From assembly GCF_011297335.1 (NCBI RefSeq), contig NZ_JAAOTJ010000001.1, positions 930,001 through 994,000 of the forward strand: DNA of 64,000 bases, given 5' to 3'. How positions within the stretch are numbered: position 1 is the stretch's first letter; every line of letters starts with the position of its first letter. The DNA is from Catellatospora methionotrophica. Its GTDB lineage: Bacteria; Actinomycetota; Actinomycetes; Mycobacteriales; Micromonosporaceae. The translations under genes were made by a program, and so were the position numbers. The notes below the pieces were generated by a model that saw only the letters and a program-made list of their open reading frames with translations, did not search any database and had not been told where the DNA came from. This document shows, one piece after another, positions 415 to 41,680 of the stretch.

Positions 415-1938
<1,524 letters not shown>

Positions 1939-8578: not shown

Positions 8579-8690
8579 TGCCGGCTGCGCCAATCGCGTG
8601 AGAGCGCCTCTGCGGTGCGTTCCGCGCACCCTGCCGACGGGCGACTGCAGCGCAGCGGGCGCCGATCGACGCCGACCGACTGGAGTTTCG

Positions 8691-12657: not shown

Positions 12658-13500
12658 ATGTTCTCACCCGCACTCGAAGTGCTGTACGCACAACCGGCCG
12701 TGCTCGCCCCGCCGGACGTCTCCTTCGACGGCTTCCTGCGCCGCTTCCCGGGCCTGGCCGAGGCCGAGGCCGTCTGCCTGACCGGGTCGATCGCCGCTGG
12801 CTGGGGCAACACCTTCAGTGACATCGACCTGTACGCGTTCGCCGACACCGACATCGACCTGCCCGTCGACGAGACGATGGAGATGTGGCCGGGCAAGGAC
12901 CCGGCCCTGGGCCTGTCGTGGAACAGGTGGATCGGCGCCTACGGCGACAACCGCGTCGACCTCAAGGTCTGGCCGACCGCGACGCTGGCGGTCGTGCTGG
13001 ACCGCTACCTCGCCACCGAGGTCGAATTCGCCGCGACGAGCGCGAACTTCCAGGACTTCATCTACCGGCTGTCGGTCGGGGTGCCGCTGAAGAACCCGGA
13101 CTTCTTCGCGCGGATGAAGGACCTGCTCGACCGGTCGTCGTACCGGCGGGCGCTCGCGCGGGCGTCGAAGACCGAGGCGGAGAACGCCCTCACCGACGTC
13201 GCCGGCCAGCTCGACTCCGGCGACGCGATGACCGCCCGGGTGTCGGCGACCCTCGCCGCCTGGAAGATGGCCGATTCCAGCCTCGCCTTCCACGGCGAGG
13301 TGTGCCGGGGGCAGAAGTGGCTGCTGCGGCGGCTGGAGCGCACCCCGGAGTGCGGTATCACGGCCGACGAGTACCGGTCGGTGGTCCTCGACGGGGCGCG
13401 GCCGGGTGAGTCCGATGCCGACTGTGCCCGGCGGATCGCCCGGTGGACCCAGGCGCACCTGGTGCGGCTGGAGGACCGGATCCTGTCGAACCCGCGCTGA
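12658..13500 (+). CDS. nucleotidyltransferase-fold protein (Pol beta superfamily)
   Basis: A 280-residue protein with the nucleotidyltransferase signature: LTGSIAAGWG then DIDLY (Gly43-Ser44, Asp55, Asp57), with a third acidic residue at Asp101 (RVDLKVW). The metal-binding Asp triad therefore looks intact. Family members transfer a nucleotide to a hydroxyl group, as in aminoglycoside nucleotidyltransferases, so it could modify a cluster intermediate or provide self-resistance. The C-terminal 150 residues look helical with no motif I know. It has an ATG start, lies at the end of the rightward operon, and is followed by a strong hairpin. Its substrate is unknown. Confidence 0.72.
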   Translation: MFSPALEVLYAQPAVLAPPDVSFDGFLRRFPGLAEAEAVCLTGSIAAGWGNTFSDIDLYAFADTDIDLPVDETMEMWPGKDPALGLSWNRWIGAYGDNRVDLKVWPTATLAVVLDRYLATEVEFAATSANFQDFIYRLSVGVPLKNPDFFARMKDLLDRSSYRRALARASKTEAENALTDVAGQLDSGDAMTARVSATLAAWKMADSSLAFHGEVCRGQKWLLRRLERTPECGITADEYRSVVLDGARPGESDADCARRIARWTQAHLVRLEDRILSNPR

Positions 13501-13507
13501 CCCTGTT

Positions 13508-13553
13508 CACGGCCCGGGGCCGGCCGCTCTCGGCGGTCCGGCCCCGGGCCGTG
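13508..13553. terminator. bidirectional hairpin terminator
   Basis: A perfect 16-base inverted repeat (13508-13523 with 13538-13553, 14-base loop) fills the 57-base gap between two convergent genes. The stem is almost pure G+C with no U-run. It would serve both the rightward nucleotidyltransferase operon and the leftward trp/aminotransferase operon. Confidence 0.75.
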
Positions 13554-13557
13554 GTGG

Positions 13558-14348
13558 TCAGCAGGTCTCTGCCACGAGGCCCTTCATGAACAGCCGGTAG
13601 CCTTCCTCACCGAGCTCCTGCCAGGCGTCGAGGCCGGCCGTGCCGACGATGGCGATGTCGGCCAGGCCGCGCACGTTGCGCACGTCGGCGGCGGTCCGGA
13701 TGCCGAAGCCGAGCCCGAGCGGCACCGGCGTCGCGGTGCGGCACCGCTGCATGAACTCGGCGACGCCCTGCGACAGGTCGGTCTTGCGCCCGGTCACGCC
13801 CCGCCGCGCGGTGCAGTAGACGAAGCCCGACGCCTGGCGGCCGATCTCGTTCAGCCGCTCCTGCGAGTTCGTCGGCGACATGATGAACACCGGCGACAGG
13901 TCGTGTTCCCGAGCCAGCGCGGTGAGCTGCGACGCCTCCTCCAGCGGCAGGTCGGGCAGGATGAAGCCCTTCATGCCGGCCTCGGCCAGGCGGGCGCAGT
14001 AGCGCTGCGCGCCCATCTGGAAGACGCTGTTGTAGTAGCCCATGAACACGATCGGGAAGCTGAATCGCGCTGCGGCGCGGGCCGCGAAGTCGAAGTACAC
14101 CTCCCAGCCCATGCCGGCTTCGATGGCGTCGTGATTGGCTTTCACGAACGCCGGGCCGTCGGCGATGGGCTCGCTGAACGGCAGCTGGAGTTCGACCAGG
14201 TCCACCCCGGCGGCGTCCATCGCCTCCAGCATCGTCCAGTTGGCCTCCAGGGACGGGTAGCCGACGACCAGGTGCGTCATGAGCAGCAACGGCTTGTCCT
14301 CGAGCCGCCCCCGCAGGTGGCTTTCAAGGCTCGTGCCCGGCACGGCGC

Positions 14349-14352
<4 letters not shown>
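13558..14352 (-). CDS. trpA: tryptophan synthase alpha chain
   Basis: A 264-residue TrpA that splits indole-3-glycerol phosphate to indole for the beta chain. The catalytic acids are present as Glu54 (VELQLPF) and Asp65 (IADGP), and the GVTG loop is retained (RRGVTGRKT). Glu-Leu-Gln replaces the common Glu-Leu-Gly after the catalytic Glu. The GTG start at 14352 overlaps the trpB stop as GTGA, so translation is coupled. No trpC, trpD or trpF is nearby. Its position in a biosynthetic operon with a chorismate enzyme suggests a dedicated supply of tryptophan or an indole compound rather than housekeeping synthesis. It could also act as a free indole-forming lyase. Confidence 0.93.
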
Positions 14353-15629
<1,277 letters not shown>

Positions 15630-15641
15630 CAGCTTAGCGGC

Positions 15642-16778
15642 TCACAGACCCAGCAGAGCGGCGGCGTTGTCGTGTGTCAGCTTACGCCGCAGCTCCGGCG
15701 ACAGGTGGTGCATCTGGCGCTCGATGGCCTGCCGCGAGAACGGCCACACGCTGTCGGGGTGCGGGTAGTCCGACGCCCACAGCAGGTGCCCCTCGCCGAA
15801 GAACGGGATCAGCGACATCGCCACCTGGTCGTCCTGGAACGTGGCCCACACCTGCCGCTTGAACAGCTCGCTCGGCTTCGTGACCAGTTCGGCTCCGCCC
15901 TTGTCGGCCCAGAACTCCTTCGCCTCCCACAGCTGGTCGTGCAGGTGGTCCAGCTCCTGCACCAGCCACGGCAGCCAGCCCGCGCCGCCCTCGGCCAGCA
16001 CCAGCCGCAGCCCGGGGTGGCGTTCCAGGATGCCCCAGGAGAACAGGTCGACGAAGGGCTCCACGAAGTTGGACAGGAACAGCTTGGTGTTCTCGAAGAC
16101 GCTCGCCGCCTTGCCGGCGATGCGCGGATCCGGCTTGGCGAACGCCGTGATGTGCCAGGACAGGATGATGCCGCTGTCCTCCAGCGCCTGCCAGAACGGC
16201 TCCCAGGCCGGGTCGTCGAGCTTGGGGTCGATGTTGGCGACCATGAAGACCACCTGGCGGACGCCGCCCCGCGCGCGCAGCCGCTCCAGTTCGGCGAGCG
16301 CGGCCGCGGGCGTCTCCGGCAGCATCGGCAGGCCGATCAGCCGCTCGGGCGCCGCGGTGCAGAACTCCAGCAGCCAGTCGTTGTAGACCTGGTAGCAGGC
16401 GGCGCGCAGCTCGGGGTCGTCGGCAGCCAGCTGGTGCACCGGCCCGTAGATCACCTGCGTGGTGACGCCGTCGCGGTCCATGTCGGCGAGCCGGAGTTCG
16501 GCCACGGCCGCCCGACGCGGGCTGGGGTCGTGCATCCCGGCCCGGTCGAAGGCGTCGTACTTCGCCTTGACCGGCCGCTGCGTGCCGCTGTCCGCCGTGG
16601 GCATGCCGACCCAGCGGCCCCAGACCTTGCCGTCGCAGACCCAGACCGCCCGGCCGTCGCGCTCCTCGACCCGCGGCGCGCGGTCGAGCAGCGCGGCGGG
16701 CAGCCGCGTGGTCCACAGGTCGGCCGGGAGCTGGCTGAGGTCCATGTGATCGTCACAGGAGATGAGGGGCCCGGTCAT
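15642..16778 (-). CDS. amidohydrolase-2 family enzyme (ACMSD-like)
   Basis: A 378-residue TIM-barrel metalloenzyme of the amidohydrolase-2 family, which includes ACMSD and gamma-resorcylate decarboxylases. A metal-site start is seen in CDDHMDL (His11), with further ligands in SWHITAF and the final acidic residue in WASDYPHPDS. The common HxH at the N-terminus is HMD here, as in many actinobacterial relatives that carry only the first His. Plausible reactions are decarboxylation or hydrolysis of an aromatic or unsaturated acid, which would fit a chorismate-derived intermediate. It is one base from the DegT stop and 12 bases from trpB. Confidence 0.85.
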   Translation of the reverse strand: MTGPLISCDDHMDLSQLPADLWTTRLPAALLDRAPRVEERDGRAVWVCDGKVWGRWVGMPTADSGTQRPVKAKYDAFDRAGMHDPSPRRAAVAELRLADMDRDGVTTQVIYGPVHQLAADDPELRAACYQVYNDWLLEFCTAAPERLIGLPMLPETPAAALAELERLRARGGVRQVVFMVANIDPKLDDPAWEPFWQALEDSGIILSWHITAFAKPDPRIAGKAASVFENTKLFLSNFVEPFVDLFSWGILERHPGLRLVLAEGGAGWLPWLVQELDHLHDQLWEAKEFWADKGGAELVTKPSELFKRQVWATFQDDQVAMSLIPFFGEGHLLWASDYPHPDSVWPFSRQAIERQMHHLSPELRRKLTHDNAAALLGL

Positions 16779-16779
16779 A

Positions 16780-18060
16780 TCAGCCTCCGATCGGGGAGTT
16801 GGGCGGGCGGTAGGCGTTGCACACCTTGGTGACGGCCTCGACGACGTCGTCGCAGTCGGCCTCCGACAGCGTGATCGACAGCGGAACGTCCACCGTCTCC
16901 TTGAGCAGCGTCGCGCTGCGCTGGTAGCGCCGGATGGTGTCCTGCTCGGTCTCGTGCGGGAAGGCGAAGCGCCAGTTCCAGAAGCACCGGTTGTTCGGGC
17001 GGCTGGCGTCGCCGAGGCCGCGGGCCCCGATGCCCTCGGTGTTGAGCGCCCGCACGAACCAGCCGACCTGCTCCGGGGTGGCTCCCGGCAGGCGGAACAG
17101 CAGCGACTCGCCCAGGAACGCGTCCTCGGCGACCGGCTGGCGCAGCCGGATCGGCGCCAGCCCGGCCAGGCGGGAGGCGACATAGCGGAAGTTGCCCTGG
17201 AACGTGGCCACCCGCTTGTCCAGCCCGGCGAGCTGGTTGCGGGCCATGGCGCCGCGGATCTCGTCCAGCCGGAAGCTGAAGATCGGCAGGGTGAGGTCGG
17301 AGATGGTCGGCAGGACGGGATCGGTGTGCCGGTGCAGTTGCTGCTCGTACGCCCCGGACAGCACCACCGCGCGTTCGAACAGGTCACGGTCCGAGGTGAT
17401 CAGGAACCCGCCCTCGCCGGTGTTGATGCTCTTGTCCGACTGGGTGCTGAACGCGCCCGCCCTGCCGAACGTGCCGAGCTTGCGGCCGCCGAGGCTGACC
17501 CCGAGGGCCGGCACGGCGTCTTCGAACAGCGGGACGCCGTGGCCGTCGGCGACGGCGACCAGGCGCTCGACGTCGCAGGCGAAGCCGCGCATGTGCACGG
17601 CGACCACGGCCTTGACGTCCGGGGTCAGCTTCGCCTGCAGGTCCACCGGGTCCATGTGCAGGTTCTCGTCGACCTCGACGACGACCGGCTTCGCCCCGGT
17701 GAGCATGATCGCGCTGGGTGTCGCCGCGAACGTGAACGCAGGGCACGCCACCGAGTCGCCCGGCCGGACCCCGGCGGCGAACAGGGCCAGCGCCATCGCT
17801 GTCGTGCCGCTCGAGCAGGCCAGGGCGTACCGGGAGTCGAAGAACCCGGCGAGCTCCCGTTCGAGCTGGCCGACCTCGGTCTCGGTGTGCGGCCGGTTGT
17901 CGTAGCGGAACAGCCGCCGGCTCTTGATGGCGCGCAGCGCGGCGGACTCGTCGTCGCCGCAGAGGTCGACGTAGCCCTTGTCGTACGTCGGCCACTCCGT
18001 GGTCCGGGTCCGCTGGCCGCCGTTCAGCGCCAGCGACGCTTCTGACACTGGTTGTGACAT
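16780..18060 (-). CDS. DegT/DnrJ/EryC1/StrS-family aminotransferase
   Basis: A 426-residue fold-type I PLP aminotransferase of the DegT/AHBA-synthase/sugar aminotransferase family. The PLP lysine is Lys210 (TQSDKSINTGEGG), the PLP-nitrogen aspartate is Asp181 (FEDAVPALG), and SSGTTA binds the phosphate. Members aminate keto-sugars or cyclic ketones such as aminoshikimate. No sugar pathway is visible in the window, so a cyclic chorismate-derived ketone is an alternative substrate. The ATG at 18060 follows a good AAGGAGAG ribosome-binding site. It is followed after one base by the amidohydrolase gene. Confidence 0.92.
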   Translation of the reverse strand: MSQPVSEASLALNGGQRTRTTEWPTYDKGYVDLCGDDESAALRAIKSRRLFRYDNRPHTETEVGQLERELAGFFDSRYALACSSGTTAMALALFAAGVRPGDSVACPAFTFAATPSAIMLTGAKPVVVEVDENLHMDPVDLQAKLTPDVKAVVAVHMRGFACDVERLVAVADGHGVPLFEDAVPALGVSLGGRKLGTFGRAGAFSTQSDKSINTGEGGFLITSDRDLFERAVVLSGAYEQQLHRHTDPVLPTISDLTLPIFSFRLDEIRGAMARNQLAGLDKRVATFQGNFRYVASRLAGLAPIRLRQPVAEDAFLGESLLFRLPGATPEQVGWFVRALNTEGIGARGLGDASRPNNRCFWNWRFAFPHETEQDTIRRYQRSATLLKETVDVPLSITLSEADCDDVVEAVTKVCNAYRPPNSPIGG

Positions 18061-18103
18061 TCGCTCTCCTTCCATCCAAGGGGACTGGGTCACCGCGGCG
18101 CGT

Positions 18104-19501
18104 TCAGCGCGCGGCGTCCCGGGCGACCTGGAGCGGGGCCGGTTCCTCACCGGCGTCAGGTCTGTCTTCGCGAGGAGCCGACCGCCACCGCCGGGTCGCC
18201 TCCAGCAGACCCGCCAGCTTGTCCCTGGTCTCGACCAGTTCGCTGTACGGGTTCGACTCCTTCAGAACGCCGACGCCGACCTTGGCGTGGATCACGTCGT
18301 CGTGCAGCAGCGCGTTGCGGATGTTCAGGAAGCAGCCGCCGGCCGCCCGGTGCAGGTGCCCGAACACTCCGCCGTAGTAGCGGTGCGGCGCGGGCTCGGC
18401 GTCGGCGACCGCCAGCAGCTGCCGCGGCCGGGCGCCCAGCAGGGGGAAGATGTTGTCGAGCATGTCGAAGACCGTCACCCCGGGCAGCAGCTCGCCGCTG
18501 AACACCGAGTGCAGGTGGCAGACGTTGCGCAGCGTCTTGACGCGCATGTCCTGCACGACGCGGATCGAGTCCGGCCGGCAGTACGGCCGGAACCGGTCCT
18601 GCCGGTTGCGCAGCGAGGACCGGTGCTCCTTGAGCTGCTTGGGATTGTCGTACAGCTCGGCGGCCAGGTAGTCCTCGTCGCCGGTCGACCGGCACGTCGC
18701 GGCGACCACGTCGACGGTCAGCGTCGGCCCGTCGACCTCGAGGATGTTCTCCGGGGTGGTGCCCAGGGAGTAGACCCCGTCGTCGAGGCAGGCGAAGTGG
18801 CCGCAGGCGTAGTCGCCGTTGCGGCGGGCGTGCAGCTCGTACAGCGTGAACGGGCTGTGCCCGGGGTCTCGCGGGTGGGTGTAGGCGCGGGTCAGCGTCA
18901 TCTTGCCGTCGGGGTGCTCCTGCAGGACGCCGACCGCGTCGGTGAGCCGGGCCAGGAAGCTGTCGTCGTCCTCGGCGGGGGTCCAGCCGTCGGCGAGTTC
19001 GGCCCACTCCCCCGGCTCACCGGCGCCGGACGGCGGGGCGGGCAGCGGCTGCGCGAGGGCGGCCCGCAGCAGGTCGGCGCCCTGCTGCTCGGTCGCCGGG
19101 TCACGGGCGTAGCCGATCCGGCCGTCGGGATGCTCGGCCGAGAAGGTGAACTCGACGGCGGGCTGCACGAACAGCACCAGCGGCAGCGCGCTGTCGACGT
19201 ACCGCCGGCGCAGGTCCGGGCTGACGATGAAGAAGCTCGGCGCGTCCTGGTGCAGGCTCTGCTCGACCCGTTTGAAGATCTGGTCTTCGGACACCGGTGC
19301 GGAGAGGGTCTGCCGGCCGTCCTCGACGCACCGCAGGATGCCGCCGCCGACCGACACCGTGCGCTGGGGCATCAGCCCGATCTTCACGGTGCCGCTGTTC
19401 TTGTTGTGGACGAGGTAGCTGCCCGCCGTGTCGGCCCATCCGGAGCCGCGGAAGAAGCGGCAGGCCCGCTCCCAGTACGAACTGTTCTCGCCGGTCGTCA
19501 C
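18104..19501 (-). CDS. chorismate-utilising enzyme, TrpE/salicylate-synthase family
   Basis: A 465-residue protein of the anthranilate/aminodeoxychorismate/salicylate synthase family. Recognisable elements are GTTPENILEV, the block VVAATCRSTGDEDY at the usual PIAGTR region, VCHLHSVF with the conserved His, DAEPAPHRYYGGVFG, and KVGVGVLKESNPYSE at the C-terminus. The PIAGT-type motif is changed to AATC and no glutamine amidotransferase domain is attached. The nucleophile could therefore be water, free ammonia or a partner-supplied amine, and the product anthranilate, isochorismate, salicylate or an amino-isochorismate. The GTG start follows a GGGGGA ribosome-binding site. It lies in the operon with trpBA and the DegT aminotransferase. 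Confidence 0.85.
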   Translation of the reverse strand: MTTGENSSYWERACRFFRGSGWADTAGSYLVHNKNSGTVKIGLMPQRTVSVGGGILRCVEDGRQTLSAPVSEDQIFKRVEQSLHQDAPSFFIVSPDLRRRYVDSALPLVLFVQPAVEFTFSAEHPDGRIGYARDPATEQQGADLLRAALAQPLPAPPSGAGEPGEWAELADGWTPAEDDDSFLARLTDAVGVLQEHPDGKMTLTRAYTHPRDPGHSPFTLYELHARRNGDYACGHFACLDDGVYSLGTTPENILEVDGPTLTVDVVAATCRSTGDEDYLAAELYDNPKQLKEHRSSLRNRQDRFRPYCRPDSIRVVQDMRVKTLRNVCHLHSVFSGELLPGVTVFDMLDNIFPLLGARPRQLLAVADAEPAPHRYYGGVFGHLHRAAGGCFLNIRNALLHDDVIHAKVGVGVLKESNPYSELVETRDKLAGLLEATRRWRSAPREDRPDAGEEPAPLQVARDAAR

Positions 19502-19526
19502 GTGCTCCCCCGTTGCTCGGCCTGGG

Positions 19527-20714
19527 TCATGCCGCGCCGCTGGCGGCCAGCGCGCGGTCGATGTCGGCGATCAGGTCTCCGCTGTCCTCGATGCCCACCG
19601 ACAGCCGCACGGTCGACTCGGTGATCGCCGACCAGGCCCGCTGCCGGGCGTCGAAGTCGCGCGGCTGCAGCAGCTGCGGCGGCAGGATCAGCGACTCCGT
19701 CGAGCCGAGGCTCGAACTGATCGTGAAGAGCTCCAGCGCCTCGGCGAACCGCTTGGCCACGTCCGGGCCGCCGGGCAGGTCGAACGCGATCATCGAGCCG
19801 AAGTCGCGCTGCTGCGCGCGGGCCAGCTCGTGCTGCGGATGCGACTCCAGGCCCGGATAGCGCAGGTCGCGGATCTGCGGCCGGGTCGCGAGGTGCCGCG
19901 CCACCGCCATGGCGTTGTGGCACTGGCGTTCGTAGCGCAGGAAGTAGGTCTTCAGGCCGCGCTGCAGCAGGAACGCGGCTTGCGGATCGAGGGTCGCGCC
20001 GAGGATCGCCATTTCCGCGCGCAGGTCGTCGATGACGGCCTGGTCGGCGATGATCGCGCCGCCCATCGCGTCGCCGTGACCGGAGACGTACTTGGTCAGG
20101 CTGTGCACGAAGATGTCGACGTCGAACTGCGCGTGGTTGTGCACTCCGGCCAGGGTGTTGTCGAGCAGCGTCAGCGCGCCGTGCCGGCGGGCCAGCGCGG
20201 TGATCCGCCCGATGTCCGCGATCTTGAGGACGGGGTTGGTGGGGCTCTCGAACACGACCAGCCGGGTCGGGGTCGCCGACAGCGCCCGCTCGACGGCGTC
20301 GAGGTCGCCGATCGACAGCAGGGTGTGCCGGACGCCGTACCGTTCCAGCACGCGGCGGATCATGGTGCGCGTCGGCTGGTACATCTCGGCGAAGCACACG
20401 ACGTGGTCGCCCTGCCGGCACAGGGCGAGCATCGCCAGGTTGACCGCCGCCGCGCCGGAGGCGGTCACCAGGCATGCCTCGCGGCCCTGCAACGCGGCCA
20501 GGGTGAGTTCGAGCTGCCGCAGCGTCGGGTTGGACTTGCGGGAGTACCAGTAGCCGTCGCGCTCGCCCTGCGAGAGCCGTTTGGTCTCGGCGACGTCGTC
20601 GAAGGTGAACTTCACCGACTGGTAGATCGGCGCCACCAGCGGCCGGTTGTCGGCCGGGACCTCGACCCGCGGCGGGTGGGTGACGGCGGTGGCGGGCTGG
20701 ACGCGGCCGGTCAC
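19527..20714 (-). CDS. Cys/Met-metabolism PLP enzyme (gamma-lyase/gamma-synthase type)
   Basis: A 395-residue PLP enzyme of the cystathionine gamma-synthase and methionine gamma-lyase family. Lys208 (VHSLTKYVSGHGD) is the PLP lysine, and YSRKSNPT matches the family YSRTGNPT phosphate clamp. SLGSTESLILPP replaces the usual SLGGxESLxxHP, with Pro instead of His. Such enzymes eliminate or replace leaving groups at the beta or gamma carbon of amino acids, including phosphorylated hydroxy amino acids. The GTG start at 20714 overlaps the stop of the kinase-like gene (GTGA), linking the two enzymes. It could act on O-phospho-serine, -threonine or -homoserine; that is inference. Confidence 0.9.
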   Translation of the reverse strand: MTGRVQPATAVTHPPRVEVPADNRPLVAPIYQSVKFTFDDVAETKRLSQGERDGYWYSRKSNPTLRQLELTLAALQGREACLVTASGAAAVNLAMLALCRQGDHVVCFAEMYQPTRTMIRRVLERYGVRHTLLSIGDLDAVERALSATPTRLVVFESPTNPVLKIADIGRITALARRHGALTLLDNTLAGVHNHAQFDVDIFVHSLTKYVSGHGDAMGGAIIADQAVIDDLRAEMAILGATLDPQAAFLLQRGLKTYFLRYERQCHNAMAVARHLATRPQIRDLRYPGLESHPQHELARAQQRDFGSMIAFDLPGGPDVAKRFAEALELFTISSSLGSTESLILPPQLLQPRDFDARQRAWSAITESTVRLSVGIEDSGDLIADIDRALAASGAA

Positions 20715-21355: not shown

Positions 21356-21865
21356 GACCAGTCTTTCGTGCGTGGGCTGGGGTCGGCGGCGACGAGACGT
21401 CAAGCGGACCTGCCTGCGGCGCTGCGGGCGTGGCGTCGGGGGCGGCGGGCCGCCGCGGAGCGGAAGTGGGGGCCAAGGTGGTCACGCCTTGCTTGCTGGC
21501 CTGGTCATCGTGATTGCGGGGCGGTCGCTTTCTCACCGGGTCCCCGCCGGGACGGCCGGGCGGCGGTGTGGCGGGGCGGACGGAGACCTGGCAACGCGTC
21601 GGCGCGAGACATGGCCGTTCCGTTCACCAACTGTTCCCCCGTCTTCACCCCAGACATCGACGCCAGGGCGTGCAAAAATCGCAGCAGCGTCGCAAAATAT
21701 TAACATCGATTCCATCGTGGACACAGTCCCGGTCGACATCCGATGCGGAACGCGGAACCGGGGAGTCGGCTGCCGCCGCTGCTAGAAGGCCCCTTGCCAC
21801 GGTGACGGCCCGTGGCGCTCGACCGTCCAGTGTGTAATGATGCCTCGGCGCGGAACGGGGGTAAG
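21356..21865. promoter_or_regulatory. divergent intergenic region between two kinase genes
   Basis: No convincing gene in 510 bases. It separates the leftward operon (21355 to 13558) from the rightward one (21866 to 26202), so it must hold two promoters. The only AT-rich stretch, around 21680-21720 (containing AATATTAACATCGATT), is a good place for them or for a regulator site. I could not pair a -35 and -10 box with confidence. Confidence 0.5.
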
Positions 21866-22516
21866 ATGGATACACGTCGTGGAGAGCGGGGCGTCCACGC
21901 CGACCCGGCCCCGCCGAACGGCGCGGCGTGCCTCGTCCTCATCGGCGGCCGGTCGGGCTGCGGCAAGACGACCGTCGTCGAGCAGCTCGTCACGGACCTG
22001 CCCGCGGTCTACGCCCGGGTCCCGTCGTTCACCTCGCGCGCACGACGCCCCGGCGAGGGCGACGGGGAGTACCGGTTCGTCACCCGCGCGGCGATGCTGG
22101 CGATGTCCGCGGCCGGCGACTTGTTCAGCCTGGACGAGGCCTACGGCGACTACTACGCGATGAGCCGCCGGGCGATCGAGGAGATCACCGACGGCGGCCG
22201 GTTCGCGGTGAAGGAGATGCACGCCAAGAACCACCCGGCGGTGCTCGCCCAGCTGCCCGGGACGATCTCGGTGCTGCTGTGGCTGCCCGATGAGCGATGG
22301 AGCGACGACCGGGTCGGCGGGGAACCCGCCCGCAGGCTCAGGCTCGCCGAGGACCAGGCCTACTACGCCGCCCTGGCCCCGGACCGCTTCGACATCGTCC
22401 ACCGGATCGAGGCGGAGGAGACGCCGAGCATGATCGCGCAAGCCCTGCACGTCGGGATACAGCAGCTGGCCGGAGCACGGTGCCGGCCCGCGGTCGCGAA
22501 GGCGCGCCGCCCGTGA
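21866..22516 (+). CDS. guanylate-kinase-like P-loop kinase
   Basis: A 216-residue protein resembling guanylate kinase. The Walker A motif is GGRSGCGKTTV, and FTSRARRPGEGDGEYRFV corresponds to the GMP-binding S-R-x-x-R-x-G-E block of Gmk. The C-terminal part is shorter in clear motifs than in housekeeping Gmk. The ATG at 21866 sits after a GGGGGTAAG ribosome-binding site; an in-frame upstream start (21812) lacks one. The stop overlaps the acyl-CoA dehydrogenase-like GTG (GTGA). It is probably a dedicated enzyme that acts on a phosphorylated intermediate, because it is operonic with tailoring genes; its true acceptor is unknown. Confidence 0.8.
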   Translation: MDTRRGERGVHADPAPPNGAACLVLIGGRSGCGKTTVVEQLVTDLPAVYARVPSFTSRARRPGEGDGEYRFVTRAAMLAMSAAGDLFSLDEAYGDYYAMSRRAIEEITDGGRFAVKEMHAKNHPAVLAQLPGTISVLLWLPDERWSDDRVGGEPARRLRLAEDQAYYAALAPDRFDIVHRIEAEETPSMIAQALHVGIQQLAGARCRPAVAKARRP

Positions 22517-23655
22517 CCGCGATCACCGCACGCGACGCCGTGCTCGAACGCGCCCGCGCCCTGGCGCCGGTGCTGGCCCAGCGTGCGGCGCAGGCCGAGC
22601 GGCTGCGCCAGGTGCCGGCCGAGTCCGTCCAGGACCTGCTGACCGCCGGGCTGGTCCAGGTCGGCAATCCCGAGCGCTTCGGCGGCGCCGGCCTCGACAT
22701 CGACACGGCCTTCGCCGTGGCTGACGAGCTGGGGCGCGGCTGCGGCTCGACGGCCTGGTGCTACTCGGTGTGGGCGGCACACAACTGGTGGCTGGGCCAC
22801 TTCCCGGAGCAGTGCCAGGAGGAGTACTTCGCCGCCGGGCCGGACACCCTGTTCTCCAGCGCGCTCAACCCGGCCGGCGGCACGGCCGAGCGGGTCGCCG
22901 GCGGCTACCGGGTGACCGGCCGGTGGACGTTCTCCAGCGGCTGCGACGCCGCGAGCTGGTTCATGGTGGCGTGCGGTCCCCGTTCCGACGAGCGCCGGTG
23001 GCTGCTGGTGCCGCGCGCCGAGGGCGAGATCGTCGACACCTGGCACGCGGCCGGGCTGCGGGGCACCGGCAGCAAGGACATCGTGGTGCGCGACGTCTTC
23101 GTCCCCGAGCACCGCACGATCAACCCCAATACCGCCGGCGACACCGACCGGACGGGTTGGGAGCTGCACAAACGCGCGAGCTACGCCGTGCCGCTGAAGG
23201 TGTTCCTGGAGTACGCGGTGTCCGCGCCGGTCATCGGCATGGCGCAGGGCATGGTGGACGCTTTCGCGGCGCGGGCCCGGCGCGGCTCCGGCCCGAACCG
23301 CACCGCGGCGCCGGTCGCGCAGCAGCTGCGGCTGGCCGAGGCGGCCGCCGAGGTCGACGCGGCCCGCACCCTGCACCGGGCCGCGGTCCGTGACATCCTC
23401 GACCGCGGCGAGCAGGGCGGATCGTTTCCGGCGCTGGACCGCGCCCGTCTCGTGCGGGACGCGTCCTTCGCCGTCAGGCTGTGCGTGCAGGCCGCCAACC
23501 GCCTGTACGACGCCAGCGGCGCACGGGGGATCATGGACGCGGAGCCGATGCAGCGCCTGCACCGCGACGTCCATGCCGCCTCCCACCACGCGGCGCTCAA
23601 CTGGGACACGGCGGCCGAGCAGTTCGGCCGCCACGCGCTGGGCATCGAGGCCTAG
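22513..23655 (+). CDS. acyl-CoA dehydrogenase-like flavin monooxygenase (class D type)
   Basis: A 380-residue flavoprotein of the acyl-CoA dehydrogenase fold, closest in wording to the HsaA/DszC/KijD3-type hydroxylases. Evidence includes ERFGGAGLDIDTAF early on, GCGSTAWCYSVW, WTFSSGCDAASWF, then LRGTGSKDIVVRDVFVP. The C-terminus lacks the usual catalytic Glu region of beta-oxidation enzymes and instead has ASGARGIMDAEPMQR. Such enzymes hydroxylate carbon or nitrogen with reduced flavin supplied by a reductase. The GTG start overlaps the upstream kinase stop. The SDR gene follows after 54 bases and could oxidise the alcohol formed. Confidence 0.85.
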   Translation: MTAITARDAVLERARALAPVLAQRAAQAERLRQVPAESVQDLLTAGLVQVGNPERFGGAGLDIDTAFAVADELGRGCGSTAWCYSVWAAHNWWLGHFPEQCQEEYFAAGPDTLFSSALNPAGGTAERVAGGYRVTGRWTFSSGCDAASWFMVACGPRSDERRWLLVPRAEGEIVDTWHAAGLRGTGSKDIVVRDVFVPEHRTINPNTAGDTDRTGWELHKRASYAVPLKVFLEYAVSAPVIGMAQGMVDAFAARARRGSGPNRTAAPVAQQLRLAEAAAEVDAARTLHRAAVRDILDRGEQGGSFPALDRARLVRDASFAVRLCVQAANRLYDASGARGIMDAEPMQRLHRDVHAASHHAALNWDTAAEQFGRHALGIEA

Positions 23656-23709
23656 GCGCGGCCCTGCGAAGTGGACGATCCGTCAGGCAACCCGGGAAGC
23701 AGGAAAAGC

Positions 23710-24516
23710 ATGTTCGACGTCAGCGGTAAGGTGTGCGTGGTCACGGGCGCGGGACGCGGCATCGGCCACGCCATCGCGATGATCTACGCCAGGCACGGCG
23801 GGATCGTCGTCGGCGCCGCGCGCAGCCTCGACGAGCTGGAGCAGCTCAAGAAGGACGTCGAGGGCGTCGGCGGCGAAGCCCTGGTGGTCCGGACCGACGT
23901 GACCCAGCGCGGCGAGGTGGACGCGCTGGCTGCGGCGGCCGTCGAGAAGTACGGCACGATCGACGTGTGGGTCAACAACGCAGGCGGCTTCGTCGACGGC
24001 GCCATGTGCGACTGGATCGACGTCGAGGCCGACGCCATGGCACGGATGTGGACGCTGAACGTGTCGTCCTACGTGTACGGGGCCCAGGCCGCCGCCCGGG
24101 TCATGCGCGACGGCGGCCGGGGCGGCTCGATGATCTTCATCAGCTCGCTCGACGCGCTGAACGCCTGCCCCGGCGGCGAGGGCCCCTACGGCGCGGCCAA
24201 GGCCGCCATCACGCACATCATGCAGTCCATGGCGGTGGAGCTGGGCCGTTACCAGATCCGGGTCAACGCCATCGCGCCCGGCCTGGTGCAGACGCCGCTG
24301 CTGGAGCCCTATCTGGCCACGCCTGAGATCGTGCGCCAGCGCGCGCAGTACTACCCGCTGGGCCGCATCGGCCAGCCGGCCGACGTCGCCAACGCGGCCC
24401 TGTTCATGGCCTCCGACGCGTCGTCGTACGTCTCCGGCGCGACCCTGCTCGTGGCGGGCGGCGCGATCTTCAACTCGGATCCGATCCGCTACCTGCAGGC
24501 GCTCGCCGATGCGTGA
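23710..24516 (+). CDS. short-chain dehydrogenase/reductase
   Basis: A 268-residue classical SDR. TGAGRGIGHA is the NAD(P)-binding motif, VNNAGGF follows, catalytic Ser lies in FISSLDAL, and YGAAK is the Tyr-Lys pair. The C-terminal APGLVQTPL and VSGATLLVAGG segments are normal. It oxidises an alcohol or reduces a ketone. The ATG at 23710 follows a GCAGGAAAAG ribosome-binding site; an upstream start at 23671 would add 13 residues. Given its position after a hydroxylase and before kinases, its substrate is probably a tailored intermediate. Confidence 0.92.
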   Translation: MFDVSGKVCVVTGAGRGIGHAIAMIYARHGGIVVGAARSLDELEQLKKDVEGVGGEALVVRTDVTQRGEVDALAAAAVEKYGTIDVWVNNAGGFVDGAMCDWIDVEADAMARMWTLNVSSYVYGAQAAARVMRDGGRGGSMIFISSLDALNACPGGEGPYGAAKAAITHIMQSMAVELGRYQIRVNAIAPGLVQTPLLEPYLATPEIVRQRAQYYPLGRIGQPADVANAALFMASDASSYVSGATLLVAGGAIFNSDPIRYLQALADA

Positions 24517-24549
24517 GCGCCGCCGGCCCGGGCCGGCCCGTCATGCGGC

Positions 24550-25530
24550 GTGGACCGCGTGACGGGCCTGCCCGGCCTTCCCCACCTCCAGCGGCTGCTC
24601 AGCGCCCATGGCGTCACCGCGGCCGGCTGGTCGGAGGCGAACCAGCAGGGGTTCTCCGGGGCTCGGATCTACCGCAACGCCGACCGGCCGGGCGTGCCGT
24701 TCGTGATCAAAGTGACGGCGGCGGACACCGACTGGATCATGCGGGCGACCGGCGACCGGCGGTGCCGGGAGGCCGTGCTGGCCGAGGCCGGCGGAATCGG
24801 CGGCGGCCCGGTCACCTCACCGGCGATCGGAGCCGCCCGCGACGGCGACGTCTGCTCGATCCTGATGCACGACATCGGCGACCAGCTGCTGCCCAACGCA
24901 CCGCTCACCGCCGGACAGCTCGACGTCGTCCTGCGCGCGGTCAGCGGGCTGCACGCGCTGACGCCGCCGGTCACCGCGGACGTTCCCTGGTGCTCGGTCC
25001 GCGACCGGGTGACCCTGTTCCTGCCCGACGAGCGCAAGCTGGCCGGCTTCCGGATCGCCGACGACATCCTGCGCGGCTGGGAGCTGTTCTTCCAGTACGC
25101 GCCGGGCGACGTCGGCGACCTGGTCCGGGCCCTGTTCGACGACACCGGCCCGCTGGAGGCCGCGCTCGGCGAGCTGCCCGACAGCCTGCTGCACGGCGAT
25201 CTCAAGCTCGACAACATCGGCCTGCGCCCCGACGGCGGCCTGTCGCTGATCGACTGGTCCATGCCGCTGATCGCCCCGGCCGCCGTCGACCTGGGCTGGT
25301 TCCTGGCGATGAACTCCCGTGTGCTGCCGGTCCCGGTGCCGGCGGCGCTGGCGGCGTACACGTCCTGCTCCACCATCGAGCGCGGCCTGCACGAGCGGCA
25401 CGAGTCGCTGACGGTGCTGTGCGGGCTGCTCATCCGCGGCTGGCGCAAGGCACTGGACGCGGCGGCGGGCGAGCCCGGCGAGCTGCGCTGGTGGTGCGAG
25501 CGGGCAGCAGCCGCGGCGACACTGCTGTGA
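24550..25530 (+). CDS. APH/choline-kinase-type phosphotransferase
   Basis: A 326-residue small-molecule kinase. The catalytic loop reads LLHGDLKLDNIG, matching the HGDxxxxN motif of aminoglycoside and choline kinases, and SLIDWSMP corresponds to the metal-binding Asp motif. Such enzymes phosphorylate a hydroxyl group of an antibiotic, sugar or amino alcohol. The GTG start at 24550 lies 33 bases after the SDR stop. It may install a phosphate on the product or its precursor, or act in self-resistance. It is one of four kinase-like genes in this part of the locus. Confidence 0.86.
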   Translation: MDRVTGLPGLPHLQRLLSAHGVTAAGWSEANQQGFSGARIYRNADRPGVPFVIKVTAADTDWIMRATGDRRCREAVLAEAGGIGGGPVTSPAIGAARDGDVCSILMHDIGDQLLPNAPLTAGQLDVVLRAVSGLHALTPPVTADVPWCSVRDRVTLFLPDERKLAGFRIADDILRGWELFFQYAPGDVGDLVRALFDDTGPLEAALGELPDSLLHGDLKLDNIGLRPDGGLSLIDWSMPLIAPAAVDLGWFLAMNSRVLPVPVPAALAAYTSCSTIERGLHERHESLTVLCGLLIRGWRKALDAAAGEPGELRWWCERAAAAATLL

Positions 25531-25560
25531 CCATCCCCGACCCGTCTGTTCAGGAGCCCG

Positions 25561-26202
25561 ATGAAGATCTACCTTGAGCCGCACGGCCGCCCGGGGACCC
25601 TGGTGGCGATCTGCGGCTTCGACGGCAGCGGCAAGTCCACCCTGGAGCAGGGGCTGCTGGCCGGGCTGGCGGCGACCGGGCCGGTGGTGCCGGCGTGGGC
25701 GCCGACGCCGTGGTGGCGCAACGACGCGCACGTCAGCCGGACCCTGTTCGGGCAGGGCGCCGGCCAGGTGCTGCCCGAGCAGGCGCTGCTGCACTTCAAC
25801 CTCGCCGACTGCCACCTGCACCAGGCCGACGTGCTGCTGCCCGCCCTGGACCGCGGCGAACTCGTCGTCGGCAACCGCTACCTGTACGACATGCTCGCCC
25901 TGTTCGAGGCGCGCGGGCTGAGCGCGCCCGCGTGGCTGCCCGACGCCGTCGCGCAGCTCGTCCGGCCGGACTTCTGCTTCGTGCTCGACGGCCCGGCGGA
26001 CGTGTTCGTCGACCGGATCATCCGGCGCGACGGTGCGATGCCCGGCCGGTTCGACCAGGACGTGGCCTTCGTCGAACGCTACAACGCGGCGCTGCGGCGC
26101 CTGGCCGACGCGAACGGGCTCACCGTGCTGCGGGCCGAGGCCGACCCCGCGGAGCTGGTCCGGCAGTGCCTCGACGTCGTGCGCGGGGCCCGGCAGGGCT
26201 GA
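25561..26202 (+). CDS. thymidylate-kinase-like P-loop kinase (second copy)
   Basis: A 213-residue P-loop kinase with ICGFDGSGKSTLEQG as Walker A and VGNRYLYDMLA as the DRY-like segment (Asn in place of Asp). FCFVLDGPADVFVDRI resembles the Tmk strand before the LID. It shares family with the kinase at 20711 but differs in sequence, so it is not a recent duplicate. The ATG follows a CAGGAG ribosome-binding site, 30 bases after the APH-type kinase. It ends 12 bases before the convergent adenylation gene. Substrate unknown; it may add a second phosphate to the product of the preceding kinase. Confidence 0.8.
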   Translation: MKIYLEPHGRPGTLVAICGFDGSGKSTLEQGLLAGLAATGPVVPAWAPTPWWRNDAHVSRTLFGQGAGQVLPEQALLHFNLADCHLHQADVLLPALDRGELVVGNRYLYDMLALFEARGLSAPAWLPDAVAQLVRPDFCFVLDGPADVFVDRIIRRDGAMPGRFDQDVAFVERYNAALRRLADANGLTVLRAEADPAELVRQCLDVVRGARQG

Positions 26203-26214
26203 TCCGCCGGGCGG

Positions 26215-27699
26215 TCAGGCGGTGGCGCGGCCGAGCCAGATGTCCTCCATCCGGCGGCGGTCGGCCTTGCCGCTGGGGGTGCGGGGCAGCTGCGCGGCGG
26301 GGACCACCGTGGCGGGCACCAGATGCGCGGGCAGGTGCCGCGCCAGGTGGCTCACCAGCGCCCGGCCGGGCTCGCCGCCGTCCGGGCCGGGTCCGGTGTA
26401 GAAGCCGACGAGCGAGCGCTGCCCGCTGCTGTTGGCCGGCGCGACCACGATGCAGTCGTCGACGCCGGGCGCGGCCCGCAGCGCGGCCTCGACCTCGCCG
26501 AGCTCGATACGGAACCCGCGGATCTTGACCTGGTCGTCGTTGCGCCCGATGTACCACAGCCCGTCGGCGGAGGCGTAGGCCAGGTCGCCGCTGCGATACC
26601 ACGTCTGACCGTCGAGGGTGAGGAAACGCTGCGCGGTCAGCTCCGGCCGGTGCAGGTAGCCGGCGGCGACGCCCGCCCCGGCGAGCAGGATCTCGCCGGG
26701 CTCGCCGAAGGGCACCTCGCGCAGGTCGGTGTCGACGAGCCGGGCCCGCAGGTGCGCCATCGGGTGCCCGACCAGGGTGGCCCCGCCGGTCCCGGCGGGC
26801 AGGTCGGTGACGTCGGCGAAGGTGGAGTGCACGGTGGTCTCGGTGATGCCGTACATGTTGATCAGGCGGGCGCCGGGGGCCAGCTCGCCGCGCCGCCACT
26901 GGGCGAGCACGCTCATCCGCACCGCCTCGCCGGCGAGCACCACGTACCGCAGCGACGACAGGTCGGGACGGCTGCGCAGGGCCGCCTTGACCAGCGCGCC
27001 GAACACGGTGGGCACCTGGTTGAGCACCGTGACCCGCTCCTGTTCGAGCAGGGCGGCCAGCCGGTAGGGGTCGCGGGCGGTCTGCTCGTCGACCACGACC
27101 AGGCAGCCGCCGTGCAGCAGGCACGCCCAGATCTCCCACACGCTGACGTCGAAGCTGTACGAGTGGAACGACGGCCACACCTCGTCGGGCCCGAAGGTGA
27201 AGCGCTGCGCCGCGGCGTGCAGCAGGCTGATCACGTTGCCGTGGGTGACGGCGACGCCCTTGGGCGCTCCGGTGGAGCCGGAGGTGTAGATGACGTACGC
27301 GGTGCCCGGCGGCAGCTCGGCCGGCTCGCCGTCGTGCAGGCGCCGCACCGTGGCCGCCGTGTCGTCGCCGGTGGTGCAGGCCAGGTGCAGCCGGGCCCGG
27401 CTGGAGTCGAGCAGGTGCGCGCGCCGGGTCGCGGGGTAGGCGGGGTCGACGGGCAGGTAGGCGCCGCCGGCGCGGAGCACGCCGAGGATCGCCGCCACGC
27501 TGCCCGCGGCGCGGGGCACGTCGACCGCGACGAGTTCGCCCGGGGTCAGGCCGCTCGCGCGCAGGGCTGCGGCGACCTGCTCGATGTGCGCGTCGAGCGC
27601 GGCATACGTCCACGCCCGGTCTCCCTCGCGCAGCGCGACGCGGTCGGGGTGCTCGGCGACGCGCCGGCGGAGCCACTGGTCGAGGGTCACCTCGCTCAC
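26215..27699 (-). CDS. stand-alone NRPS adenylation domain, threonine-like pocket
   Basis: A 494-residue single adenylation domain with YTSGSTGAPKG, NMYGITET, YRSGDLA and the terminal PSGKADR lysine motif. The pocket read by eye is about DVWNVAMVHK, nearest to the threonine code DFWNIGMVHK, so threonine or a similar hydroxy or substituted amino acid is predicted. There is no carrier domain in the protein, but its GTG start overlaps the stop of the carrier gene immediately upstream (GTGA), which identifies the likely partner. The gene is third in a leftward operon: nucleotidyltransferase, carrier, adenylation. Confidence 0.9.
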   Translation of the reverse strand: MSEVTLDQWLRRRVAEHPDRVALREGDRAWTYAALDAHIEQVAAALRASGLTPGELVAVDVPRAAGSVAAILGVLRAGGAYLPVDPAYPATRRAHLLDSSRARLHLACTTGDDTAATVRRLHDGEPAELPPGTAYVIYTSGSTGAPKGVAVTHGNVISLLHAAAQRFTFGPDEVWPSFHSYSFDVSVWEIWACLLHGGCLVVVDEQTARDPYRLAALLEQERVTVLNQVPTVFGALVKAALRSRPDLSSLRYVVLAGEAVRMSVLAQWRRGELAPGARLINMYGITETTVHSTFADVTDLPAGTGGATLVGHPMAHLRARLVDTDLREVPFGEPGEILLAGAGVAAGYLHRPELTAQRFLTLDGQTWYRSGDLAYASADGLWYIGRNDDQVKIRGFRIELGEVEAALRAAPGVDDCIVVAPANSSGQRSLVGFYTGPGPDGGEPGRALVSHLARHLPAHLVPATVVPAAQLPRTPSGKADRRRMEDIWLGRATA

Positions 27700-28199
27700 C
27701 GGGCGGCCCCGCCGTCGGTGAGCACGGCCGCGATCTGCGCCGCGGTGTGCGCGCCGAGAAGCGCCAGCTCCAGTGGCACGTCGCCGCGCCACCGCGGGCC
27801 GTAGACGCCGGTCAGCGCCACGATGGCCTCGACCGCGCCGAGGGAGTCGCCGCCGAGTTCGAAGAACTCGTCGTCGGCGCCGACCTCCTCCAGTCCGAGC
27901 ACCTCGGCCCAGATGTCGACGATCTGCGCCTCGGTGTCGGTGGCGGGCGGCCGGTACGGCGTGCCGACCGGGGGGCGGGGGTCGCCGAGGTCGAGCGGGT
28001 CGGCGAGGTCGTCGGCGCGGGCGAAGCGGTCGGGGCGCGGCCGGGTGGCGGCGTGGTCCTGGCGCAGCGCGAGCGGGTCGACCTCGTCGGGGTCGGCGGC
28101 GTAGCGCAGCACCAGCAGGTCGCGGCCGAGCCGGGTGCGGTACGGCGCCAGGGCGGCGGCGCGGGCGCCGGGCACGGTGACGGTGGTCGGCTCGGTCAC
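27696..28199 (-). CDS. free-standing peptidyl carrier protein with N-terminal extension
   Basis: A 167-residue protein with a carrier domain at about 88-165 and the attachment serine at Ser119 in FFELGGDSLGAV. The first 85 residues are unlike a carrier domain. They are rich in Asp, Arg and Pro and could be a docking segment or the end of an ancestral adenylation domain. Both ends overlap neighbours by GTGA, so it is translated with the threonine-like adenylation gene downstream and the nucleotidyltransferase gene upstream. It is the probable site where the threonine-type residue is held while kinases or nucleotidyltransferases act. Confidence 0.86.
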   Translation of the reverse strand: MTEPTTVTVPGARAAALAPYRTRLGRDLLVLRYAADPDEVDPLALRQDHAATRPRPDRFARADDLADPLDLGDPRPPVGTPYRPPATDTEAQIVDIWAEVLGLEEVGADDEFFELGGDSLGAVEAIVALTGVYGPRWRGDVPLELALLGAHTAAQIAAVLTDGGAAR

Positions 28200-29359
28200 G
28201 GGTGGTGCTCCCCCACGGTCAGTTCGATGGGCAGGTCCAGCACCCGCGCGAGCGGGTCGCCGAAGTCGGCGAAGTGCGCGCTGTTGCGGGGGGCGGGCAC
28301 GGCCAGGGCCGCCAGGAAGTCACCCGGCACCTCGCAGCCGAACACCCCGCCCAGCATGCGGAAGACGTAGCCCAGCGGGGGCCGCAGGGCGACGTGCCGC
28401 TGGGCGATGTCGGCCAGGGCGGGCCAGTCGACGCGGCCGGCGCGGGTGAGCGCGGCGAGGTCGCCGAGGATCTTGAGGTTGGGGTCGCCGTACAGCATCA
28501 CGTCGGTGTAGAAGTGGTTCGCCGCGAACCAGGCCGCGGTGACGTCGCTGATGGCGTCGAAGGCCACGCCGCGGTAGGCGACCCGCTGCGGGTGCTGCCA
28601 CCAGTCGGCCTCGGTGGGCCGGAACGCGGCCGCGGTCGGGTCGTGCACGCTGTTGAGGTTGTGGTGCACGTCGAACAGGGCGCACAGGTGCACCTGCCCG
28701 CCCAGCAGGACCACCTCGCCGGGCAGGGTGCGCGCGATGAAGTCGGCGTGCTCGTCGAGGTGCGGCGTGCGGACGAGCTTCACCCAGCTGCGGCTCTGTC
28801 CGAAGTGGCCGAACGACGCGCCTTCGCGGGCCGCCACCGCCGGTGGCAGCTTCAGCGGCACGTTCGCGCGCACGATGAGGTCGTCTATGTAGCCCAGTCG
28901 GCGCAGCGTGTCGCAGGTGGTGTCGAAGTCGCCGGAGCGCACCAGCAGGTCGACGTCGGTGGAGAACGGCGGTTCCAGGTGCGGGTACACGGTCGCGGCG
29001 TAGAAGACGCCCTTGGGCACCAGCACCGGCACGCCCTTGGCGCCCAGCTCGGCCTGCACCAGCCGCAGCTGTTCCAGGTGCAGGTCGGCCATCGCGGTGG
29101 CCACCTGCTGCAGCCGGGTCAGGTCGCTGCCCGCGCCGCCGATCTCGTCGAGTTCGCCGCAGACTGCCCGGACGACGTGGCTCAGGCGCCGGCTCATCAG
29201 CAGCGGCACCAGCCCGTCGCCGGAGGCGGCCGGCTCGCCCAGCTCGGCCAGCACCCGGGCGGCCTGCTCCGCGGGCAGCCGCTGCGGGAACACCCGCAGC
29301 GCCCGGACGGCCAGCGCGGCGAGGCCGTTCAACGGCCGGGGTGACGCGTGCATCCACAT
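28196..29359 (-). CDS. nucleotidyltransferase family protein (PF14907-like)
   Basis: A 387-residue protein resembling the uncharacterised nucleotidyltransferase family NTP_transf_5. The signature is VLVPKGVFYA (Lys116-Gly117) followed by STDVDLLV (Asp135, Asp137). C-terminal features include WFAANHFYTD and LKILGDLAAL, also typical. As I recall, this family occurs beside phosphorylated lasso-peptide genes. It heads the leftward carrier/adenylation operon, and the carrier GTG overlaps its stop. The ATG at 29359 follows GAGGAAG; a longer frame to 29539 exists but is unsupported. Its function is unknown. A role in modifying the carrier-bound amino acid is inference. Confidence 0.72.
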   Translation of the reverse strand: MWMHASPRPLNGLAALAVRALRVFPQRLPAEQAARVLAELGEPAASGDGLVPLLMSRRLSHVVRAVCGELDEIGGAGSDLTRLQQVATAMADLHLEQLRLVQAELGAKGVPVLVPKGVFYAATVYPHLEPPFSTDVDLLVRSGDFDTTCDTLRRLGYIDDLIVRANVPLKLPPAVAAREGASFGHFGQSRSWVKLVRTPHLDEHADFIARTLPGEVVLLGGQVHLCALFDVHHNLNSVHDPTAAAFRPTEADWWQHPQRVAYRGVAFDAISDVTAAWFAANHFYTDVMLYGDPNLKILGDLAALTRAGRVDWPALADIAQRHVALRPPLGYVFRMLGGVFGCEVPGDFLAALAVPAPRNSAHFADFGDPLARVLDLPIELTVGEHHP

Positions 29360-35237: not shown

Positions 35238-35238
35238 C

Positions 35239-41678: not shown

Positions 41679-41680
41679 CC

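Follow-up and report, generated by a model that had tools for sequence, protein, structure and literature searches.

Results

Six phosphate- and nucleotide-transfer enzymes in a biosynthetic region

We analyzed 64,000 nucleotides of contig 1 (positions 930001-994000) from the 8.39 Mb genome of Catellatospora methionotrophica, a stretch referred to here as the window. Genes were called using the GC content at third codon positions (GC3) together with Pfam scans, and biosynthetic-type genes are listed over 415-29359 of the window. Interspersed with adenylation (A) and carrier (T) domain genes of nonribosomal peptide synthetase (NRPS) type are those of two nucleotidyltransferases (NT1 and NT2), two thymidylate-kinase-like proteins (TmkA and TmkB), a guanylate-kinase-like (Gmk-like) protein and an APH-type kinase. 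An original prediction had united the six in a single set modifying a carrier-bound Ser/Thr-type residue step by step. All six are indeed present as open frames with catalytic motifs and with the family matches given below. Our analysis separates two questions that had been merged, that of NT1 and its cassette and that of the apparently recruited kinases. The genes concerned are:

2904..4280, forward strand: MFS exporter of the NT1 cassette (Pfam; 10 of 11 cassette loci)
4284..7283, forward strand: A-T-C protein with a Pro-like code (Pfam and code; 2 of 11 cassette loci within the sequence covered)
8526..11042, forward strand: KS-(~200 aa)-T protein of the NT1 cassette (Pfam; 11 of 11 cassette loci)
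11302..12357, forward strand: luciferase-like (LLM) oxidoreductase of the NT1 cassette (Pfam; 11 of 11 cassette loci)
12350..12610, forward strand: stand-alone T domain of the NT1 cassette (Pfam; 11 of 11 cassette loci)
12658..13500, forward strand: NT1, putative Pol-beta-type nucleotidyltransferase, predicted ANT(4')-like fold (residues, profile, model)
13558..14352, reverse strand: TrpA-like protein (Pfam)
14349..15629, reverse strand: TrpB-like PALP protein (Pfam)
15642..16778, reverse strand: Amidohydro_2 protein (Pfam, 109.9 bits)
16780..18150, reverse strand: DegT-type aminotransferase (Pfam)
18104..19501, reverse strand: chorismate-utilising enzyme, divergent (Pfam, NCBIfam)
19527..20714, reverse strand: Cys/Met-type pyridoxal phosphate (PLP) enzyme, start overlapping the TmkA stop (Pfam, NCBIfam)
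20711..21403, reverse strand: TmkA, thymidylate-kinase-like P-loop kinase (Pfam)
21866..22516, forward strand: Gmk-like P-loop kinase, base-side residues changed (Pfam, alignment)
22513..23655, forward strand: HsaA/HPAH-type flavin monooxygenase, start overlapping the Gmk stop (Pfam, NCBIfam)
23671..24516, forward strand: SDR (Pfam)
24550..25530, forward strand: APH-type kinase (Pfam, motifs)
25561..26202, forward strand: TmkB, second thymidylate-kinase-like protein, of another lineage (Pfam, tree)
26215..27699, reverse strand: A2, stand-alone A domain with a Thr-like code (Pfam and code)
27696..28199, reverse strand: T2, stand-alone T domain (Pfam)
28196..29359, reverse strand: NT2, NTP_transf_5 nucleotidyltransferase (Pfam, alignment)

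Five of the six enzymes pass their Pfam cut-offs. TmkA and TmkB scored 83.4 and 39.0 bits against Thymidylate_kin (cut-off 27), the Gmk-like protein scored 40.0 bits against Guanylate_kin (cut-off 25.2) in a match confined to some 105 N-terminal residues, the APH protein reached 35.5 (cut-off 23.2) in a match limited to its C-terminal part, and NT2 scored 74.8 bits against NTP_transf_5 (PF14907, cut-off 31.2). The APH translation contains HGDLKLDN and IDW, which we take to be APH motifs, and the K-G and DxD residues of NT2 are invariant in four aligned sequences. NT1 stays under the Pfam cut-offs (13.6 and 13.5 bits). Its putative assignment is based on G-S...G-W...S-D-x-D residues that are invariant in 16 aligned sequences, its own included, on a profile match to HI0073, a putative nucleotidyltransferase (E 1.3e-4), and on its predicted fold.

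Coupling of these genes by GTGA overlaps had also been predicted. With the chosen starts, four-base overlaps join TmkA to the Cys/Met-type PLP gene, the Gmk-like gene to the oxygenase gene, TrpB to TrpA, NT2 to T2 and T2 to A2, whereas no overlap exists at the SDR/APH and APH/TmkB junctions. GC3 is 0.91-0.98 in the NT1, Gmk-like, APH, TmkB and NT2 genes; TmkA was displaced by an overlapping frame in that call.

NT1 belongs to a separate cassette

A scan of 84,980 genomes for NT1, combining a four-sequence alignment with two peptide patterns, gave nine loci that are 58-69% identical (the G061 and G254 loci among them). Together with G291 and a plasmid of Streptomyces sp. NBC_01216 these make 11 distinct loci, all of them found through NT1, whose presence is thus by construction. 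We searched them with 35 window proteins (the oxygenase being outside this set) at 45% identity or more and 50% coverage or more. KS, LLM and T were found in 11/11 loci, MFS in 10/11 and the A-T-C protein in 2/11, and no other window protein was found in any; identity of the cassette proteins was 46-73% over all four proteins. TmkA, TmkB, the Gmk-like protein, the oxygenase, APH, NT2, the amidohydrolase and TrpA gave no match at E 1e-3 in the 11 loci, seven of which reach only 10 kb to each side, so that more distant kinases are possible there. The G254, G061 and G291 genomes each have only two PF02223 matches, located either on a different contig or no closer than 199 kb. NT1 therefore belongs to a cassette separate from the other five enzymes, and the single six-enzyme locus that had been proposed does not hold in the loci seen.

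An AlphaFold model of NT1 was built from 16 sequences (predicted local distance difference test 88.0, predicted template modelling (TM) score 0.84). Its first Foldseek hit is ANT(4') with E 5.3e-6 and TM 0.53/0.57 over 264 columns, the kanamycin nucleotidyltransferase ranks fourth, and 21 chains reach E 0.001. Other fold matches include 3c18, an uncharacterised nucleotidyltransferase-like protein (TM 0.43-0.46). The predicted fold points to small-molecule nucleotidylation of the antibiotic type. Because the model matches ANT(4') and the kanamycin nucleotidyltransferase along its length, masking of an antibiotic appears at least as likely a role for NT1 as biosynthesis. NT1 marks a small cassette that occurs in streptomycetes and their relatives; adenylylation may serve to mask the product of this cassette.

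Some further observations were made at the cassette loci. The Planosporangium locus has an NDK-like protein nearby (35.8 bits, cut-off 27). On the NBC_01216 plasmid, NT1 is separated from LLM by an annotated leucyl/phenylalanyl-tRNA--protein transferase gene and a PqqD gene (L133, 18828-22162). An HPr-kinase-like identity of two proteins, at the G254 and S. capoamus loci, found no Pfam support. Kinship of the Pro-like cassette with detoxin/rimosamide was dropped, the portion of PMC12828459 available to us containing neither 'nucleotidyl' nor 'luciferase'.

TmkA, TmkB and the Gmk-like protein are extra copies

The genome has four PF02223 matches: TmkA, TmkB, one on contig 54 and the best-scoring, with 171.9 bits, on contig 34. 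Its PF00625 matches number two, the better one being on contig 11 (146.4 bits). Two of the four and one of the two thus lie within about 5.5 kb here, a clustering that exceeds chance. TmkA (78.4 bits) and TmkB (41.8) stay below the NCBIfam equivalog cut-off of TIGR00041 (83.25), as does the Gmk-like protein with 58.2 bits against a cut-off of 160.45. Since better-scoring dTMP and guanylate kinases are encoded on other contigs, TmkA, TmkB (neither of them a best-scoring dTMP kinase copy of the genome) and the Gmk-like protein are extra copies rather than the housekeeping kinases of this genome, in agreement with the original prediction.

The acceptor sides have changed. The thymine-side motif DRY..S..AYQ, present in the housekeeping Tmk as DRYVDSSLAYQ, is not kept in TmkA (DRYLYTHLALA) or TmkB (NRYLYDMLALF); the Gln of AYQ presumably acts on the thymine side. 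In an alignment with solved guanylate kinases, the Gmk-like protein keeps the residues SxxxRxxRxxE..Y (PSFTSRARRPGEGDGEY), which we take to be the phosphate-side GMP residues, while the Glu and Asp presumed to form the guanine side are replaced by Ser and His (LLEWAEF and LKIDLQG in the housekeeping Gmk versus LFSLDEA and VKEMHAK). P-loops are retained in all three proteins. The changed base-side residues therefore suggest acceptors other than dTMP or GMP, and a plain reading would be a phosphorylated acceptor without the usual base. These kinases have the look of nucleotide kinases that were recruited to act on new acceptors.

Relatives of the other genes in sampled genomes

The sample searches for the chorismate enzyme, the Gmk-like protein and TmkB scored four to eight first-look candidates per genome. 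TmkA has a relative at E 1e-10 in 11/11 genomes of the genus (32-37% identical apart from its own, among the matches listed), and at E 1e-29 or better in 10 of 350 family genomes, its own included, with 39-45% identity in the other nine. A TmkA DNA query against plasmids gave no match, and its kin in viral contigs (12 distant relatives, 23-42% identity) were dropped. TmkB was found at E 1e-14 only in its own genome among 396 of the phylum. In a tree of 32 rows TmkA and TmkB stand apart with a weak split (62/58), TmkB joins a Rhizobium leguminosarum plasmid protein at 99/99, and none of the starred sets (up to half the rows) includes TmkA. The deeper TmkB forks are weak (88/90), and for this reason a count of eight TmkB loci was set aside. 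The Gmk-like protein has relatives at E 1e-8 in 26 of 350 family genomes including its own (the others at 28-39% identity among the matches listed) and none in the contigs of the 84,980 genomes. The chorismate enzyme at E 1e-40 was confined to its own genome among the 350. NT2, sought in plasmids, had a best match of 25% identity.

Kinase genes beside nucleotidyltransferase genes

We compared positions by hand at 18 NT1-like loci outside the window, three of which are close NT1 orthologues. A PF02223 match lies within 15 kb in four and within 25 kb in five of the 18; one of these matches (in G177) has a score of 23.8 bits by itself, which rises to 40.7 when its neighbours are included. Under random placement, with loci assumed independent and every genome treated as a single circle, 0.21 and 0.36 would be expected (P 8e-5 and 1e-5). 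Both gene types may simply gather in product clusters.

Similar pairs were seen around TmkB relatives on plasmids, of which six of eight records were examined. A nucleotidyltransferase motif is encoded in five of the six, two of the five being related Vibrio plasmids; the S. anulatus plasmid is without it. In the Vibrio pair the motif-bearing gene adjoins an acyl carrier protein gene and an adenylation gene; that of V. lentus scores 19.2 bits, just under the Pfam cut-off of 21. Among TmkA relatives, two of nine loci (L051 and L052) carry the motif.

PF14907 was scanned in 23 selected family genomes. In 18 of these a small Tmk paralogue lies within 1 kb of a PF14907 match, one of which is under the cut-off (for example L162, 6362-7854, and L146, 8204-9707, besides 16 further genomes). 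The two contexts that were read lie away from any obvious product cluster, and such pairs may therefore have a general function. One locus (L148, G251 contig 47) has Tmk-like and PF14907 genes near others that by eye are YcaO/TfuA-like and radical SAM-like. On three Streptomyces linear plasmids (L154, L155 and L156) a radical SAM gene is directly followed by a dTMP kinase gene, 3' of which lies a NUDIX gene (two plasmids) or phosphatase-family and MazG-like genes (one plasmid).

Other genes of the region

Two further biosynthetic-type genes belong to the list:

415..1938, reverse strand: A1, stand-alone A domain with a Ser-like code (Pfam and code)
Between the A-T-C and KS-T genes: alpha/beta hydrolase (Pfam)

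In the KS protein (8526-11042), no Pfam match covers the roughly 200 residues that separate the KS linker from the T domain, and there is no AT. Directly before the window (contig 1, 920001-930000), EPSP-synthase-, ATP-grasp-, creatininase-, class III aminotransferase- and F420-dehydrogenase-like genes were read by eye; the biosynthetic region may extend past the window start. At 33433-48036, genes for NMT1-type ABC uptake, an FGGY kinase, cupin_8, FAD-dependent oxygenase-like, HMGL, aconitase and Iso_dh proteins and an aminotransferase look like a 2-oxoacid chain-extension set.

Discussion

A possible mosaic of two units

We tentatively read the window as a mosaic in which two or more biosynthetic units are combined, giving this reading a little less than an even chance. 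Unit 1, which would nucleotidylate a small molecule, is the KS-LLM-T-NT1-MFS cassette, here with an A-T-C protein. NT1 would most likely adenylylate the product of unit 1 or a late intermediate, and the MFS protein would act in export. Unit 2, the candidate for phospho- or nucleotidyl tailoring, comprises three operon-like runs partly coupled by GTGA overlaps: TmkA with the PLP enzyme, chorismate enzyme, DegT, amidohydrolase, TrpB and TrpA; the Gmk-like protein with the oxygenase, SDR, APH and TmkB; and NT2 with T2 and A2. APH would most likely add the first phosphate to a hydroxyl of an intermediate, probably Thr-derived or aromatic, and the diverged nucleotide kinases would add further phosphate to the phosphomonoester so made. 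The phosphorylated group would then serve NT2 in nucleotidyl or glycosyl transfer, in the manner of the PsmK/PsmN pair of a lasso peptide; NT2-T2-A2 with a Thr-like A2 fits tailoring of this kind. That unit 2 forms one pathway we infer from gene neighbourhood; its substrates and the order of its reactions are likewise proposals.

Several points weigh against this interpretation. The substrates of all six enzymes are assigned by inference. The codes of A2 (DVWNVAMVHK, Thr-like) and A1 (DVWHISLVDK, Ser-like) differ at several positions from the code table used in assigning them, and NT2 is only 21-23% identical to the other aligned PF14907 proteins. Seven of the nine TmkA-relative loci are without the nucleotidyltransferase motif, as are all six further TmkB-type plasmid loci found with the R. 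leguminosarum kinase; one motif-lacking plasmid locus, from Curtobacterium, has an annotated Thg1-type guanylyltransferase gene. The lid region of the Gmk-like protein appears shortened by eye and the protein could be inactive; among the diverged kinases, loss of function may be least unlikely here. HalB of an anti-phage system is among the fold matches of NT1 (TM 0.30-0.38), which leaves an anti-phage role open. Lastly, phosphate acting as a leaving group would account just as well for the overlap between TmkA and the PLP gene.

Kinases could activate hydroxyls for PLP enzymes to eliminate or replace, as known from O-phosphohomoserine, giving a phosphate-free product; PLP enzymes of the Cys/Met and TrpB types use phospho-amino acids. 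Besides the TmkA/PLP overlap, the sole NCBIfam match of the APH protein would suit this scheme, namely the class V lanthionine synthetase subunit LxmK, with a score of 18.8 bits that lies far under the cut-off of 315. One leaving group would need one kinase, however, and NT2-T2-A2 would be left unexplained, so that we consider this route possible but on the improbable side. A pathway in which the kinases build or salvage a nucleotide-like product appears unlikely: among the unit 2 genes scanned, no phosphoribosyltransferase, PyrF or nucleobase gene was found. It draws on a region of the same genus (G009 contig 12, ~320-375 kb; L136, L111, L112, L161) with Tmk, Gmk-like, Cmk-like, DCD-like, UDG-domain and PPDK_N proteins and three nucleotidyltransferase motifs, and on the R. 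leguminosarum plasmid with TmkB's nearest tree relative, where a run includes PRPP-synthetase-like, TrpD-like (Glycos_transf_3), PfkB and NTP_transf_2 genes. TmkB relatives of Vibrio, Agrobacterium and a Lactococcus also lie near annotated pyrF genes.

We regard it as very unlikely that a single carrier-bound Ser/Thr residue is modified by all six enzymes in turn. Their proximity, the Thr-like A2 and Ser-like A1 codes and the NT2-T2-A2 overlaps speak for this scheme, and the tailoring of a Ser/Thr-type residue survives to the extent that NT2 is overlap-coupled to stand-alone T and A domains. The single six-step pathway finds no support, as the NT1 cassette lacks the other five enzymes in 11/11 loci and the predicted NT1 fold is of the antibiotic type. 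In the samples searched, neither the Gmk-like protein nor the chorismate enzyme nor TmkB had a close relative, so that the set was not met at a second locus; the expected conservation of the gene set in related loci was thus absent from the loci seen, and the set as proposed falls. Overall, the original prediction appears partly supported. Equally improbable is that the kinases are relocated or decaying nucleotide kinases without a pathway role. Although the family match of the Gmk-like protein is confined to the N-terminal part and its base-side residues have changed, the frames are open, GC3 is high in the five genes listed, P-loops are kept, overlaps with pathway genes exist and there is some recurrence beside nucleotidyltransferases. 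A phosphonate route was rejected, all four PEP-mutase-family matches being on other contigs. For anti-phage defence only low-scoring PADLOC matches were obtained, the best being 43 bits (PDC-M51B) and 36.5 (VakA), both to TmkA.

A bolder conjecture is that a Tmk-type kinase and a Pol-beta-type nucleotidyltransferase, at some loci with stand-alone A and T domains, form a cross-phylum tailoring module building diphosphate- or nucleotide-linked amino acids on carriers. Of the forms of such a module seen here, the window would contain the most elaborate, since its three nucleotide-kinase-type enzymes come from different lineages; we find this conjecture distinctly doubtful. The pairing, met in some actinobacteria, rhizobia and vibrios, can serve as a lead to products that bear phosphate or nucleotides and whose kinases carry the annotation 'dTMP kinase'.

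Comparison with known systems

The NT1 model resembles ANT(4') and kanamycin nucleotidyltransferases over 254-268 columns (TM 0.46-0.58, E 5e-6 to 2e-4), and NT1 has the G-S...S-D-x-D catalytic residues of ANT-type enzymes. Identity is 11-12%, and the related ANT(4')-IIb matches the model at TM 0.35-0.41 only. Unlike the ANT enzymes, NT1, known here from its sequence and model, sits in a conserved biosynthetic cassette. With the housekeeping dTMP and guanylate kinases, TmkA, TmkB and the Gmk-like protein share Pfam families and the P-loop; unlike them, they fall below the NCBI equivalog cut-offs and have their base-side residues replaced.

A nucleotidyltransferase and a phosphotransferase occur together in one producer's cluster in muraymycin self-resistance. 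We recognised no paper describing such a six-enzyme NRPS set in the open-licence literature searched. Among the window genes scanned there were no lasso maturation genes, short precursor genes not having been sought; at one sampled actinobacterial locus (L160) a PF14907 gene lies beside lasso-type genes, the names of which were read by eye. Lasso peptides are reported to undergo phospho-tailoring by PsmK/PsmN (pseudomycoidin) and PadeK (paeninodin), a dedicated kinase and an annotated nucleotidyltransferase modify one Ser hydroxyl, and PsmN is credited with adding one or two hexoses to the phosphorylated Ser (PMC9266682, PMC8498205). PsmK/PsmN act on a ribosomal peptide with a kinase of the HPr-kinase type, whereas the window combines NRPS genes with kinases of Tmk, Gmk and APH types. 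Here too, kinases are encoded near a nucleotidyltransferase, the distance to NT2 being about 2.0 kb from the end of TmkB and about 2.7 kb from that of APH, and by analogy the PsmK/PsmN pair would be the best precedent for unit 2.

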